Source: a virus. Taken from it: a stretch of DNA of 64,000 bases. Location of the stretch: IMG/VR virus record IMGVR_UViG_3300044617_000796, positions 44,841 to 108,840 of that record, one strand, 5' to 3'. Below the pieces are notes generated by a model that was given only the letters and a program-made list of their open reading frames with translations, was not told where the DNA came from and did no database searches. Below are positions 8,856 through 33,909 of this stretch, piece by piece (position 1 is the stretch's first letter; every line of letters starts with the position of its first letter). The position numbers were made by a program, and so were the translations under genes.

Positions 8856-9099
8856 TTTTTATGACCCAGAGAAAAACTACAACCCCTGGGCGGTTGAAAG
8901 AAGTTTTGAAGATTGGCTTCTTCTTGGAATAAACAACGGTTGGATTTCTAGACCAGTTTGTTCAACACATGATGGATTACCAAGCACTCGTGACGAAGAT
9001 GTTGAGTGGGATGAGGGCGGAGACCCATGTGTTTATGCAGTACGCCTTTTTGCTGATGAGAGTGAAAAGAAAGCTGTGGAAGATAACTGTGGTATATAA
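8845..9099 (+). CDS. hypothetical actinophage-type protein
   Basis: 84 aa, acidic. It has a WISRPVCSTHDGLPSTRDED stretch followed by WDEGGDPCVYAVRLF, a pattern found in many small actinophage proteins of unknown function; two conserved Cys. Good evidence of the host group, none of function. Confidence 0.75.
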   Translation: MTDNFYDPEKNYNPWAVERSFEDWLLLGINNGWISRPVCSTHDGLPSTRDEDVEWDEGGDPCVYAVRLFADESEKKAVEDNCGI

Positions 9100-9100
9100 A

Positions 9101-9592
9101 ATGGCAAGACAGCCAGCAAAGGTTGAAGAGATGGATGCTTGGGTTATCCGCTATGTAAATAAACTTAAGAACATGATGGGTTTATCCAATTGGACAATTT
9201 TAATGCAAGCAAAGCCATCTAGTGCTGATGCTTTAGGAGAGACAGAGGTTATTCACGGTCAACACCTAGCAAAGATGTATCTACACAAAGACTTCAGAAA
9301 AGACTCCCCAGAAGATATTCGTGCAACAATTGTTCATGAGTTACTTCATTGCCACTTGGCTGTTCTTGAAGAGGCGGTGCATGAAGTTCTTAAGCCAGAC
9401 TCGGATGATGCAAAAGCAAAAGCTGTGCACAAGATGGTTATCTCCCTTATTGAATATGAGAACGAAAGAATTATTGACAGTCTTGCAGAATCAATGGGTA
9501 AATGGATGCCTGTTCCTGATATGCCCAAGGCAAGGGAGAAAAAGAAAGCAGTAAAGAAAGTGGTGAAGAAACAGGTAAGAGGCAAAAAGTAA
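9101..9592 (+). CDS. HExxH zinc metalloprotease
   Basis: 163 aa from the ATG at 9101 (an upstream in-frame ATG at 8969 would overlap the previous gene by 130 bp and is not favoured). HELLH at 79-83 is the zinc-binding and catalytic motif, in an ATIVHELLHCHL helix. The C-terminus is Lys/Val-rich (KKAVKKVVKKQVRGKK) and may bind nucleic acid or membrane. Small zincins of this type are frequent in actinophages; the substrate is unknown. Its stop overlaps the next ATG (TAATG). Confidence 0.8.
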   Translation: MARQPAKVEEMDAWVIRYVNKLKNMMGLSNWTILMQAKPSSADALGETEVIHGQHLAKMYLHKDFRKDSPEDIRATIVHELLHCHLAVLEEAVHEVLKPDSDDAKAKAVHKMVISLIEYENERIIDSLAESMGKWMPVPDMPKAREKKKAVKKVVKKQVRGKK

Positions 9593-12016: not shown

Positions 12017-12262
12017 TTATAATTCTATAAAAATGCATTCACCAGGGCACTCTTCGGCGGCTTCAATAACATCTTCCAACCGATCATCGGGAAAAGATGC
12101 TAAACCAGCTGCGCCTTCGGGGTTTCCTCGGAGCTTGGAATAAACCTTCCCGCTCTCTTGGACATAGGCTAACCCATCCTCCAGCATGGTGAAAACATCG
12201 GGTGCTATCTCGGCGCACAGTCCATCTCCAGTACATAGGTCTTGGTCAATCCAAACTCTCAT
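12017..12262 (-). CDS. 3Fe-4S ferredoxin
   Basis: 81 aa. CTGDGLC (C10, C16) and the distal Cys of ECPGEC (C72) supply three ligands; the usual second Cys position of a 4Fe-4S site is Asp/Gly (D13), giving a 3Fe-4S type. This class in actinobacteria donates electrons to cytochromes P450 and other oxygenases. No P450 is visible here; nrdJ and the 2OG oxygenase are the redox enzymes in the window. The start overlaps the SNase stop (ATGA). Auxiliary metabolic gene. Confidence 0.9.
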   Translation of the reverse strand: MRVWIDQDLCTGDGLCAEIAPDVFTMLEDGLAYVQESGKVYSKLRGNPEGAAGLASFPDDRLEDVIEAAEECPGECIFIEL

Positions 12263-28521: not shown

Positions 28522-28863
28522 TTATAATTCGTCAAGTTCTTCATCTACAAGCTTGGCATTTAGTTCAACAATATCAGCAGGGACTTCACCTTTTTTGATC
28601 AAGTCATTATGATAGCCAATATTTTTCTCTATCTCCCTAGATGTAGATGAATTTGGATTGTAAAAATATTCACGAACATGACCAACTGTTTTTTCACCAA
28701 CAGTATACTCAAAAATTCTAGCAAACCAATTTGATGGTTTGAATCCGTGTTGTCTTTCACATATCCTATTAGCAATAGATACTGCCGACATTACATTATC
28801 AGCATCATCTACTCTAATAGGTATCCTGAACTCAACGATATAGTAGTTATCAAATTTAGGCAT
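28522..28863 (-). CDS. hypothetical protein
   Basis: 113 aa from the ATG that overlaps the stop of the upstream membrane gene (TAATG). PKFDNYYIVEFRIPIRVDDA, then a basic middle and an acidic end. Family not recognised. Confidence 0.65.
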   Translation of the reverse strand: MPKFDNYYIVEFRIPIRVDDADNVMSAVSIANRICERQHGFKPSNWFARIFEYTVGEKTVGHVREYFYNPNSSTSREIEKNIGYHNDLIKKGEVPADIVELNAKLVDEELDEL

Positions 28864-28976
28864 TACTTCAACTTTGATCCCATTAAAACCACTGTTATTG
28901 CAACTAACATAAAAGCAATAGCAGGAAATAATATCAAGAAATATAATACCCAAATACCAGCAATCCAATACTTCAT
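28863..28976 (-). CDS. tiny membrane protein
   Basis: 37 aa, very hydrophobic, one long or two short membrane spans (IAGIWVLYFLILFPAIAFML, then AITVVLMG). TAATG-coupled to the gene after it. Confidence 0.55.
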   Translation of the reverse strand: MKYWIAGIWVLYFLILFPAIAFMLVAITVVLMGSKLK

Positions 28977-28983
28977 ATAACTC

Positions 28984-30633
28984 CTACAGTTTATTGATTG
29001 TTAAAAGCTCTGGATCATCAATTGAAAAGCTAATTCCCATTGATTTGCCATCGCTTGATGGAATTAATTGACCATTCATTTGGCTTGATAAAACAGATAC
29101 ATTCTGATCTTCATTAGTAACAAAGAATTTCTTCTTACCAATTTGCATGATCAACCCACCAATTTCTGTTTCGTAAATCTGATAGTTCAAACCACCAAAT
29201 TCACCAAGGTCTTCAATATTAACCCAGAAACCAGCTTCGTTCACATTCAAAATGTTGTTCTCATATGAATCAACAATCAATCTACCGATCCGATTATCTG
29301 CCAGGTTTCTGAATTCTCTGAACATACTATCAGTAATTCCAGTTGAATAGTGATCGTACTCATGAATAATCGTAGATACAATTTCATAGATATTAGAATT
29401 GGTAGCATGACTATGTTCAATAACAATTTGACGCTCACTAATGTCTTTACCAACATTAAAGGTATAACCAAGCGCATCGTTTGATTTTGACTTGAACACA
29501 CCCAATGGCTTATTCATTTTCAAAAGTCCTGGCTCATATGATTCAGCAATTTTCAAAGCTTTAATAAGTTTAGGAAATTTACTGATATCAAGATCAATAT
29601 CATAAGTAAATTCTTCAGTTATGAGTTCGCCAGCTAAATCAACTTTTGCTTCCTTTAGAAGACTATAGAAACCTTCAGATAAACACTTAACTGGGTTACT
29701 GCCTCTGTTCTTAATAAAGGAATCAATTCCTGGAATTAATGATTCAGTAGGGCTAAGCAATACTGCGTTATCGCCATAGATTTTATTGAATACAATATTC
29801 CATTCACGGCAAGGACTGACATAATGGTATGTTGATTCTGAAATAACATCAAATTCCCAAACTCTATTTTGTTTATCAATAACAAGTTTGAAAATCTTCT
29901 TGATTTCATCCTCATTGTCAAGCCTTGCAATAACCTTTGCGATTTCGTATGAAACACTATATATGCTTTTGATCTGCCTATCCTCATTCAATACGGCATT
30001 ATTAATCTCATAGTTATACATATTGTTTCGTTCATCGCCTTCGTGAACCATTACTGATTTGCAATAAATACGCAATGGTCCTTCTATTGCTTCAAGCATT
30101 GAAGATTGGTTTGGTTTGTTACCATAAACAGAAATTACTTTATGATCGTCACAGAAGAAAAAATTATGGTTGTTATAAACTTCCATAATACCTGGGGATG
30201 CAGTAATATAAACACTGAATTCACCAGGTTTAGCTTTTTCAATTGATTCAACAATCTCTCGCTTCCATTCCCCGCTATCCTTAGCATTAGAAACAGCCTC
30301 ACGATAAATTTGAAACTCATCTTCCCAGCTCATAATTCCAGCTTCCAATGTAAATGAAGATGGCTTTACGAATCCATTACAGTAATCGTAGTAGATTGAG
30401 TTGATGCCATTCTCATCAATTGATTTGTACTTTAGAATGTAATCGCCTTCACTATCGCTACCAGTAAAGACCCATTCCAAACCCATTCTTAAGGCTGCAA
30501 TTGGAGCATACTTAATTCCAGAACCAAATTGACCAATGGTATCTGGATTATCCCGTTTAGTTGATAGACCAAGTTTTTCCAAACTTAGTCTATTAACTGA
30601 ATCAGTGTAATTTGTTATTTTGATGTAGGACAT
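28984..30633 (-). CDS. GHKL-type ATPase with zinc-peptidase motif
   Basis: 549 aa. The N-terminus looks like a GHKL (Hsp90/MutL/histidine-kinase) ATP site: an early Asn/Asp helix, then TIGQFGSGIKYAPIAALR (residues about 32-49) as the glycine-rich lid. The C-terminal third has TIIHEYDHYSTG with HEYDH at 424-428, a zincin active site. T4 rIIA is a precedent for a phage GHKL protein, but the fusion to a peptidase motif is unusual. An ATP-gated protease acting on a host protein is a reasonable guess. Largest protein of the accessory operon. Confidence 0.7.
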   Translation of the reverse strand: MSYIKITNYTDSVNRLSLEKLGLSTKRDNPDTIGQFGSGIKYAPIAALRMGLEWVFTGSDSEGDYILKYKSIDENGINSIYYDYCNGFVKPSSFTLEAGIMSWEDEFQIYREAVSNAKDSGEWKREIVESIEKAKPGEFSVYITASPGIMEVYNNHNFFFCDDHKVISVYGNKPNQSSMLEAIEGPLRIYCKSVMVHEGDERNNMYNYEINNAVLNEDRQIKSIYSVSYEIAKVIARLDNEDEIKKIFKLVIDKQNRVWEFDVISESTYHYVSPCREWNIVFNKIYGDNAVLLSPTESLIPGIDSFIKNRGSNPVKCLSEGFYSLLKEAKVDLAGELITEEFTYDIDLDISKFPKLIKALKIAESYEPGLLKMNKPLGVFKSKSNDALGYTFNVGKDISERQIVIEHSHATNSNIYEIVSTIIHEYDHYSTGITDSMFREFRNLADNRIGRLIVDSYENNILNVNEAGFWVNIEDLGEFGGLNYQIYETEIGGLIMQIGKKKFFVTNEDQNVSVLSSQMNGQLIPSSDGKSMGISFSIDDPELLTINKL

Positions 30634-30647
30634 TTTTTAACCTCTTT

Positions 30648-31277
30648 CTATTTCAATGATAATGATGTAAGGATACGGCTCTTATTGTATTCAGTATATT
30701 GTAGAGCATCAAGAACTTCGCTAATTTCTAGAATAGAAAATGAACGAAGCATTACTTTTTCTTCTTCAATAACAGTTGGTTGGACAATACCTTCTGTTTG
30801 CTTCTTCATATAACCTTCAATAATGGCTTCTACTGATTTGATATATAGACTACCAGTATGGCAAGGAGAATCATAATTAAAAGATGTAAGCAATTCGTCA
30901 GCTAATGCTATAGCATCAGGTTCATCTAAATAATTACCTACTTCACGAGCAATGTCTTTATAATCAAGATTGCTTGCAATTGTATCCATATCCAAATAAT
31001 CTTCTAAATCAATAGAATTAAGAACACCTTCAACTTCATCGTTCCAGTCATGATTGCTAAGACCTGATTCAATCACATCTTCAAAATCGTAATTCTGAAT
31101 GATTTGCTCAACCTGATCGTCAGTCATTGTATAGTCTTTAAACATTTCAATTAACTGTTCTGATGGGAATGTCATTGTTGCTACGACATCTTTTACTTTT
31201 GCTGCTTCCATTTTATTTTCTCCAATCGGTGTGTTTATATAATTCCCTGCTACTTCTGTTCTCTCTAAATATTCCAT
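30648..31277 (-). CDS. hypothetical acidic protein
   Basis: 209 aa, very acidic through the middle (DFEDVIESGLSNHDWNDEVE), helical. The usual start may be the internal ATG of MEAAKVKDV. Next to the GHKL protein, so a partner role is possible. Family not recognised. Confidence 0.65.
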   Translation of the reverse strand: MEYLERTEVAGNYINTPIGENKMEAAKVKDVVATMTFPSEQLIEMFKDYTMTDDQVEQIIQNYDFEDVIESGLSNHDWNDEVEGVLNSIDLEDYLDMDTIASNLDYKDIAREVGNYLDEPDAIALADELLTSFNYDSPCHTGSLYIKSVEAIIEGYMKKQTEGIVQPTVIEEEKVMLRSFSILEISEVLDALQYTEYNKSRILTSLSLK

Positions 31278-31672
31278 TAGAAATACCTTTCAGCTTCCCA
31301 TTCAACATATCTAAACATTGCTGAACCTTCATTAATTTTTCTTCTTGCACCATCAAACCAATCTAAGAAAACATATTGTGCTGATTCAACAACATTGTCT
31401 TCATTAATAATTGCTTCAATATGTGACGAAGGACCACCACCACTTAATTCAATTGTTAATAGTCTCTTCATACTTGAGCCAGCTGCATATTCATAAATTG
31501 TTTGATTATCAATTTCTTCATCTTCAACTTGCTTAAGCAATTCTTTATCGTCTTCATCATCTTCATCAAGATCGTCATCATATACCCTAAACATAAGTTC
31601 AAGATAATCATCTGCTCTACGATATTCTTCTTCAATACGCTCTTGACATGTTTTTTGTTTTGTATTTGACAT
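31277..31672 (-). CDS. hypothetical acidic protein
   Basis: 131 aa with an Asp/Glu run (YDDDLDEDDEDDKELL) after a helical start. ATG/TAA junctions with both neighbours (1 bp). Family not recognised. Confidence 0.65.
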   Translation of the reverse strand: MSNTKQKTCQERIEEEYRRADDYLELMFRVYDDDLDEDDEDDKELLKQVEDEEIDNQTIYEYAAGSSMKRLLTIELSGGGPSSHIEAIINEDNVVESAQYVFLDWFDGARRKINEGSAMFRYVEWEAERYF

Positions 31673-32603: not shown

Positions 32604-32924
32604 TTATTTTGATTTTTTTATTTGTGTTATTGTTTTGTTTATAACAATTGGGACTATTTCAGAATAGTCAATTACATTATAAACTTTCTTAATTGAATTT
32701 CTTTCACGAGAAGAAAAGCCTCCCCAAACACCATGCTCTATGTTTTCATTTAAAGCATAAGATAAGCATTCGGTTTGAACTTTGCAATCACCACAAAATT
32801 CTCTTGCTTTACTAATTTTCTTTGTGCTGTACCTTCCATTTTCAGTTTCAAAAAAGAAAATATCTAATGGATGTTTTTTGCATTTAGCAAAATCTCTCCA
32901 CTCTTCCCGTCTAGTTTTAGCCAT
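32604..32924 (-). CDS. WhiB-family iron-sulfur regulator
   Basis: 106 aa. The four WhiB cysteines are C15, C44, C47 and C53 (CxxC-x5-C), with GVWGG at 65-69 and a basic, Lys-rich C-terminus. WhiB proteins bind a 4Fe-4S cluster and the main sigma factor, and occur only in actinobacteria and their phages. Phage copies can take over host WhiB promoters. It may regulate early host or phage transcription. Confidence 0.92.
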   Translation of the reverse strand: MAKTRREEWRDFAKCKKHPLDIFFFETENGRYSTKKISKAREFCGDCKVQTECLSYALNENIEHGVWGGFSSRERNSIKKVYNVIDYSEIVPIVINKTITQIKKSK

Positions 32925-33303: not shown

Positions 33304-33909
33304 TTAGTTTGCGTATAGGTCAAAATCAATATCTGTTACTTCTTCTGGAACATAATGATGTTCCCATTGATCATGTTGTCTAATTTCACCATTAGCAAAT
33401 ATCAATTGCCCAGCAAAACACATTCCTGGTTCTTCATAATGAATATAACCATTTAGTGTAGGAAATTGTTTAACAATAGCTTCTGCTAATTCATCACAAC
33501 CAGGAGCCCATGCTGTATCATATTCAAAATGAATACTTGCATTACCTGTTAATACAGAAACACCATTTTCAAAATCAACATCACCATCTTCTAGATGTGG
33601 ATAATTAATTTTTGTTTCATAGGAAATGCTTTCAGCATTCATATTGTAATCACCCCATTTAGTTCCCCATTTACTATTGCACCAATCGTACCAGTTATCA
33701 TGACCATATTTATTAATCAAATCTACATTGCCTTCTTTTGAAGGTGATGTAGTTCCTTCTAATTCTTTCGGCATTGGGATCAATGATTCAAATAGATTGT
33801 ATTCATTTTCATCTTTATCATCACCATCATTTTTTACAAGGGCGATGAATTTTTCTACATCATCAATTGGACCAGTTATTCCTAACCTGTTACTGCAATG
33901 ATTTGGCAT
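33304..33909 (-). CDS. DUF1281-like (YubB ferredoxin-fold) protein
   Basis: 201 aa. Starts MPNHCSNRLGITGP and has the DUF1281 features FESLIPMPKELEGT, YDWCNSKWGTKWG, TAWAPGCDELAEAIVKQFP and YEEPGMCFAGQL. The family is common on plasmids and phages; the name refers only to its fold and its function is unknown. Confidence 0.85.
   Translation of the reverse strand: MPNHCSNRLGITGPIDDVEKFIALVKNDGDDKDENEYNLFESLIPMPKELEGTTSPSKEGNVDLINKYGHDNWYDWCNSKWGTKWGDYNMNAESISYETKINYPHLEDGDVDFENGVSVLTGNASIHFEYDTAWAPGCDELAEAIVKQFPTLNGYIHYEEPGMCFAGQLIFANGEIRQHDQWEHHYVPEEVTDIDFDLYAN

Follow-up and report, generated by a model that had tools for sequence, protein, structure and literature searches.

HSP90, gyrase, MutL, MORC and histidine kinases are all driven by GHKL domains. 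Their canonical motif order is N-box, G1 and G2, and all GHKL proteins known to us share one motif order. The described systems closest to the protein analysed here are the T4 rIIA-type proteins, the HSP90, HtpG and TRAP1 chaperones, the Wss1 and SPRTN peptidases (WLM and SprT-like) and gp29 of Pseudomonas phage YuA with its Yuavirus relatives (phrog_8203 and phrog_6077). The protein resembles each of these in part, and it very probably unites a permuted GHKL domain and a zincin in one chain. No description of a permuted GHKL or Bergerat domain was found in searches of the open-access literature.

The window, which is the whole stretch of 64,000 nucleotides that was analysed, corresponds to bases 44841-108840 of a virus record (IMGVR_UViG_3300044617_000796) with a total of 108,840 bases. 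The 549-aa ORF starts with an ATG and runs on the minus strand from 30633 to 28984; the plus strand of the same interval carries stop codons throughout. Against four close relatives, the gene showed a dN/dS of 0.06-0.12. The phrog_8203 HMM significantly matched residues 1-257 (E=2.9e-15) and phrog_6077 was also matched (E=2.9e-13), both being annotated in PHROG as of unknown function. Scans of the protein with Pfam, NCBIfam and PADLOC gave no usable family, and no Pfam family at its cut-off. Identity with TmtA, GajB or PtuB was rejected, the PADLOC matches being weak and scattered, and a PDB search with the single sequence returned ribosomal chance matches only. The sequence-only reading had singled out GQFGSGI at residues 34-40 and HEYDH at residues 424-428 of one protein. 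Both are present as described and conserved across the family; they are not chance occurrences, as they include invariant positions in an alignment of 56 sequences, whose members are 30-93% identical to the window protein. Coordinates are given in Table 1.

Table 1. Features of the 549-aa protein and its neighbouring genes (window positions)
Feature	Residues	Position	Strand	Basis
CDS of the 549-aa protein (probable permuted GHKL/zincin), stop codon included	1-549	28984..30633	(-)	ORF; phrog_8203 and phrog_6077 matches
Apparent circularly permuted GHKL (Bergerat-type) ATPase domain	1-146	30196..30633	(-)	Rotation test; AF2; Foldseek
G1-equivalent strand YIKITN..V.R; invariant Asn8 (Asp in canonical GHKL)	3-15	30589..30627	(-)	Alignment, profile comparison
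LGLSTKR; S-x-K motif of the lid in rIIA/MutL-type GHKL	21-27	30553..30573	(-)	Alignment
G2 box IGQFGSGIKYAPI	33-45	30499..30537	(-)	Alignment; aligned with rIIA GGFGLGSK
N-box REAVSNAKD, after G2	111-119	30277..30303	(-)	Invariance; rIIA spacing
HSP90-middle-domain-like region	147-345	29599..30195	(-)	Foldseek; hhalign
LNEDR	215-219	29977..29991	(-)	N216, E217, R219 invariant (56/56)
Zincin metallopeptidase domain, Wss1/SprT-like	346-460	29254..29598	(-)	AF2; Foldseek; hmmsearch
HEYDH active-site motif	424-428	29350..29364	(-)	H424, E425, H428 invariant (56/56)
D435 and FRxxAD, including D446	435-446	29296..29331	(-)	Invariance; Wss1 alignment
C-terminal beta-rich extension	461-549	28987..29253	(-)	AF2 secondary structure
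Upstream neighbour, 209-aa protein, syntenic		30648..31277	(-)	Cluster in 64 loci, usually position -1
Second upstream neighbour, 131-aa acidic protein, syntenic		31277..31672	(-)	60 loci, usually -2
Downstream neighbour, up to 148 aa, syntenic		28522..28968	(-)	59 loci, at +1

With regard to the ATPase half, the chain opens with the G1-like strand (YIKITN), continues through LGLSTKR and IGQFGSGIK, and only then reaches the N-box, whose place after G2 had gone unremarked in the sequence-only reading. All 79 long members show the order G1, G2, N-box instead of the canonical one, and on this ground we regard the domain as a permuted relative of GHKL. The motifs themselves are well preserved: I33, G34, F36, G37, S38, G39 and K41 are invariant in the 56-sequence alignment, which includes the three glycines of the G2 box GxxGxG, and so are R111, E112, N116 and D119 (56/56), which provide the N-box pattern E-x3-N-x2-D. 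S24, K26 and R27 are likewise invariant (56/56), the S-x-K being aligned with S107 and K109 of rIIA. By homology, Glu112 would be catalytic and Asn116 would bind Mg, with Asp119 assigned to the same N-box. A split gene, its N-box encoded by a separate ORF upstream, was considered and dismissed because the invariant N-box already lies within the protein; among the long members, at most 37 open codons precede any start, too little for an extension with a further N-box. The N-terminal GHKL domain appears to be circularly permuted. The implied new ends lie in the hairpin between the strand following the N-box and the G1 strand, which would be a structurally easy place for a cut.

The principal support for the permutation comes from a test in which the profile of residues 1-146 was cut, rejoined with the N-box leading and compared with a T4-type rIIA profile (hhalign). 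The native order aligned over 23 columns with a score of 36.3, and the rotated profile scored 50.1 (P 92.7%, E 4e-7). Rotations starting anywhere between residues 43 and 109 gave scores of 49-51 (P ~92-93%), and the gain disappeared with a cut within the N-box (start 115). In 300 shuffles of the moved segment, the highest score was 41.4. Six distant phages taken alone, comprising YuA gp29 and others with none from the clade of the window, rose from 33.4 to 46.2 upon rotation, with shuffles at 36.8 or below. When an HSP90 profile was used, the same rotation extended the alignment from 59 to 119 columns and then covered the N-box, without raising the score (36.3), so the gain in score comes from rIIA only. 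As the permutation is deduced from sequence and profiles, one might suppose that the G2-like loop is real and that a helix with the pattern REAxxNAxD resembles an N-box by chance, in a protein that is no true GHKL. We consider this very improbable, given the invariance and exact spacing of the four N-box residues and a rotation gain far above the shuffles in two separate sets of sequences. If such a natural permutation is indeed widespread, it would mean that a Bergerat fold can be opened at the hairpin preceding G1, and it would explain why these phage proteins are labelled "hypothetical" under searches based on motif order and Pfam.

A further departure within the ATPase half concerns G1. 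The canonical box DxGxG carries an adenine-binding Asp, which is replaced by Asn8 in all 56 sequences, and its GxG is absent in the clade of the window; distant members have N-x-G. The equivalent substitution in yeast Hsp90, D79N, reportedly abolishes ATP binding. ATP binding may be altered here, given Asn8 and the missing GxG, and the replacement of the G1 Asp makes the use of ATP uncertain. The term "ATP-regulated", applied to the protein in the sequence-only reading, is accordingly something we infer, since the residue that would contact adenine is an invariant Asn.

The earlier comparison with T4 rIIA, a GHKL protein of phage-host conflict, holds for the motifs and not for close kinship. 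Both proteins are phage-encoded, both carry S-x-K, GxxGxG(x)K and E-x3-N-x2-D with identical internal spacing (E47-N51-D54 in rIIA), and both have a candidate downstream Arg. In contrast to rIIA, the window protein has its N-box after G2, Asn for Asp in G1 and a zincin at its C-terminus. The rIIA profile A5, run without a positive control, matched nothing in this genome. Furthermore, the 595-kb huge phage LR756511.1 encodes a permuted member (67801-69219, L021) as well as a canonical-order rIIA homologue (135968-136813, L094), which indicates that the two are separate genes.

The whole protein was modelled by AF2 with a pLDDT of 88.4, confidence being lowest around residues 21-40, as is expected of a lid. 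In Foldseek, the best matches of the model were HSP90 and TRAP1 (E ~1e-6), and isolated HSP90 middle domains (1usu, 6ksq) were matched with E values of 5e-3 to 1e-2. In hhalign, RIYCKSVMVHEGD and LNEDR were placed on an HSP90 strand and LNVSRE, the profile score itself not being significant. Arg219 is a candidate equivalent of the middle-domain Arg that reaches the gamma-phosphate in HSP90 and rIIA. The likeness to HSP90, HtpG and TRAP1 includes the IGQFG G2 box and possibly the middle-domain strand and the LNxxR motif. The window protein differs from them in its permuted ATPase domain and in the metallopeptidase that follows the middle-domain-like region, where the C-terminal dimerisation domain of HSP90 would be expected; no Pfam HSP90 match was obtained.

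In the C-terminal half, the helix that carries HExxH belongs to a zincin fold, as judged from the AF2 model, Foldseek and the alignment. Residues 340-460 alone were modelled with a pLDDT of 93.0 and a pTM of 0.87. The best Foldseek match was Wss1 (5xbv, prob 1.00, TM 0.61, E 0.019), followed by the HExxH oxygenase domain of ChlB (prob 0.90) and, below it, selecase, SPRTN, Ste24 and HtpX; no match of this domain fell under E 0.001. In hmmsearch, Wss1p was found at E=0.014. In addition to the HExxH residues, D427 is kept in 55 of the 56 sequences, and D435, F441, R442 and D446 are invariant. D435 occupies the position of the D in HExxHxxxGxHD of Wss1 and is a candidate third zinc ligand, with D446 as an alternative. 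The window protein thus shares the zincin fold, HExxH and this Asp with Wss1 and SPRTN, but has Thr434 in place of the third-ligand His and an attached GHKL ATPase. The gathering scores of Pfam WLM and SprT-like were not reached, the best members giving E values of 0.0013 and 0.0097 and those seen singly falling below the cut-off. The beta-rich extension is absent from shorter members (~455-495 aa). Overall, the fusion of a GHKL-type ATPase with a zincin-type domain proposed in the sequence-only reading is borne out by the conserved motifs, the AF2 model, the Foldseek matches to HSP90 and Wss1 and the profile comparison; the structure predictions that it had called for led to HSP90/TRAP1 for the whole chain and to a zincin fold for residues 340-460. 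A second HExxH protein of ~207 aa (TIVHELLH) is encoded in the window at 8969-9592 (+), with a weak SprT-like match of 15.3 bits, below the cut-off.

A first scan of IMG/VR found 19 loci; with the alignment as query, 153 viral loci were confirmed, 80 of which were kept. Among ~85,000 bacterial and archaeal genomes there were only two family matches, both on MAG contigs. The few matches in bacterial and archaeal assemblies lie on a 5.3-kb contig (L023), a 5.9-kb contig (G057:C2) and a 20.8-kb archaeal-MAG contig (L024); the L023 and G057:C2 contigs are probably carried-over viral DNA and were rejected as cellular genes. Two huge-phage homologues connect the family to cultured phages, namely the YuA/M6 group of Pseudomonas phages and phages of Bordetella, Stenotrophomonas (Sonora), Synechococcus and Brevundimonas. 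Deposited names range from hypothetical to HATPase, ATP-binding protein and "hydrolase, metallopeptidase". YuA gp29 and its Yuavirus relatives have the same permuted ATPase domain, but are only ~390 aa long with a shorter middle region. HExxH is replaced by EExxH in YuA (L086:4986-6164), Sonora (L087:4995-6179), Synechococcus JY42 (L088:4992-6185) and LR756511 (L021:6001-7422), where the first His is Glu and the second Glu, second His and downstream Asp are retained; the motif is absent in LR756500. EExxH may represent a degenerate or altered metal site. As HExxH is degenerate or absent in distant members, proteolysis would not be universal in the wider family. As cultured Pseudomonas phages have a homologue, YuA gp29, the permuted half is open to testing at once.

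The gene was present in 12/12 terminase-relative contigs with >12.5 kb downstream of the terminase. Sixteen shorter TerL contigs without the gene were considered for gene loss, which was rejected as none of them extends past the place where the gene would lie. The gene is thus a syntenic core gene in a group of freshwater phages. The three syntenic neighbours are possible partners or substrates of the 549-aa protein; the 209-aa one showed no clear Pfam or PHROG match.

Our full reading, to which we give slightly better than an even chance, is that of a permuted GHKL ATPase with an HSP90-like middle domain, a Wss1/SprT-like zincin and a beta-rich tail, forming a nucleotide-gated clamp that feeds the protease. 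Gating of proteolysis by nucleotide is the most likely mechanism, at a little under an even chance. The N-box helix, last in the permuted domain, would run into the middle domain, and nucleotide would be bound and hydrolysed by Glu112, Asn116 and the G2 lid together with Arg219. This cycle would open and close the HSP90-like clamp, which would grip a client protein, possibly DNA-bound, and present it for cleavage to a zinc site formed by H424, E425, H428 and probably D435. The zincin fusion suggests that an HSP90-style clamp can serve as a protease regulator. More tentatively, and with clearly less than an even chance, a natural permuted GHKL with Asn for the adenine-binding Asp would drive or gate the zincin as a one-chain "HSP90-protease", a phage-specific type of chaperone-protease, possibly with altered nucleotide specificity.

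The sequence-only reading had favoured host takeover or counter-defence. On such a view, the protease would cleave a host immune or housekeeping protein and ATP would act as a timing switch. This found no support here and we regard it as unlikely: the gene is core, syntenic and strongly purified in the phage clade rather than patchy, and no PADLOC match was convincing. Its presence in all twelve contigs, its conserved neighbours and its low dN/dS fit better with a core function in infection than with a swappable counter-defence gene. Nevertheless, core status would be compatible with counter-defence, since T4-like phages commonly carry rIIA as well. Orthologues of rIIA have been discussed with other little-understood systems by which jumbo phages counter host defences, and host proteins have been suggested as possible targets of phage SprT-like peptidases (PMC7824862).

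Two further explanations, each rather improbable, reassign one half of the protein. Many GHKL proteins act as DNA clamps, and a clamp of this kind (cf. MutL, GyrB and MORC) could hold DNA while the Wss1/SprT-like protease removes crosslinked or DNA-bound proteins that block replication or packaging. The closest zincins are consistent with this, being Wss1 and SPRTN, of which the SPRTN entry bears the title "Mechanism of protease dependent DPC repair", but the middle domain matches HSP90 best rather than the MutL or GyrB transducers, and neither a DNA-binding domain nor a SprT-type zinc ribbon was identified in the protein. Alternatively, the protein could be a chaperone of the HSP90/rIIA kind whose zincin fold is structural or supports other chemistry, e.g. 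that of an HExxH Fe(II)/alpha-ketoglutarate oxygenase. The distant members that retain the ATPase half with EExxH or no motif, and the ChlB match, point in this direction, whereas the invariance of H424, E425 and H428 over deep divergence in the clade of the window and the best structural match, the protease Wss1, argue against it.

The nearest cultured relatives of the large terminase subunit of the window infect Streptomyces (41-42% identity). A WhiB-like protein is encoded at 32604-32924 (-) (Pfam E=4e-19), and together these suggest an actinobacterial host. The window also encodes an Api92-like protein with a DUF1281_C domain at 33304-33909 (-) (E=7e-9). Finally, a small ferredoxin-like ORF (CTGDGLCAEIAPDVF...CPGECI) was recognised by eye at 12017-12262 (-).
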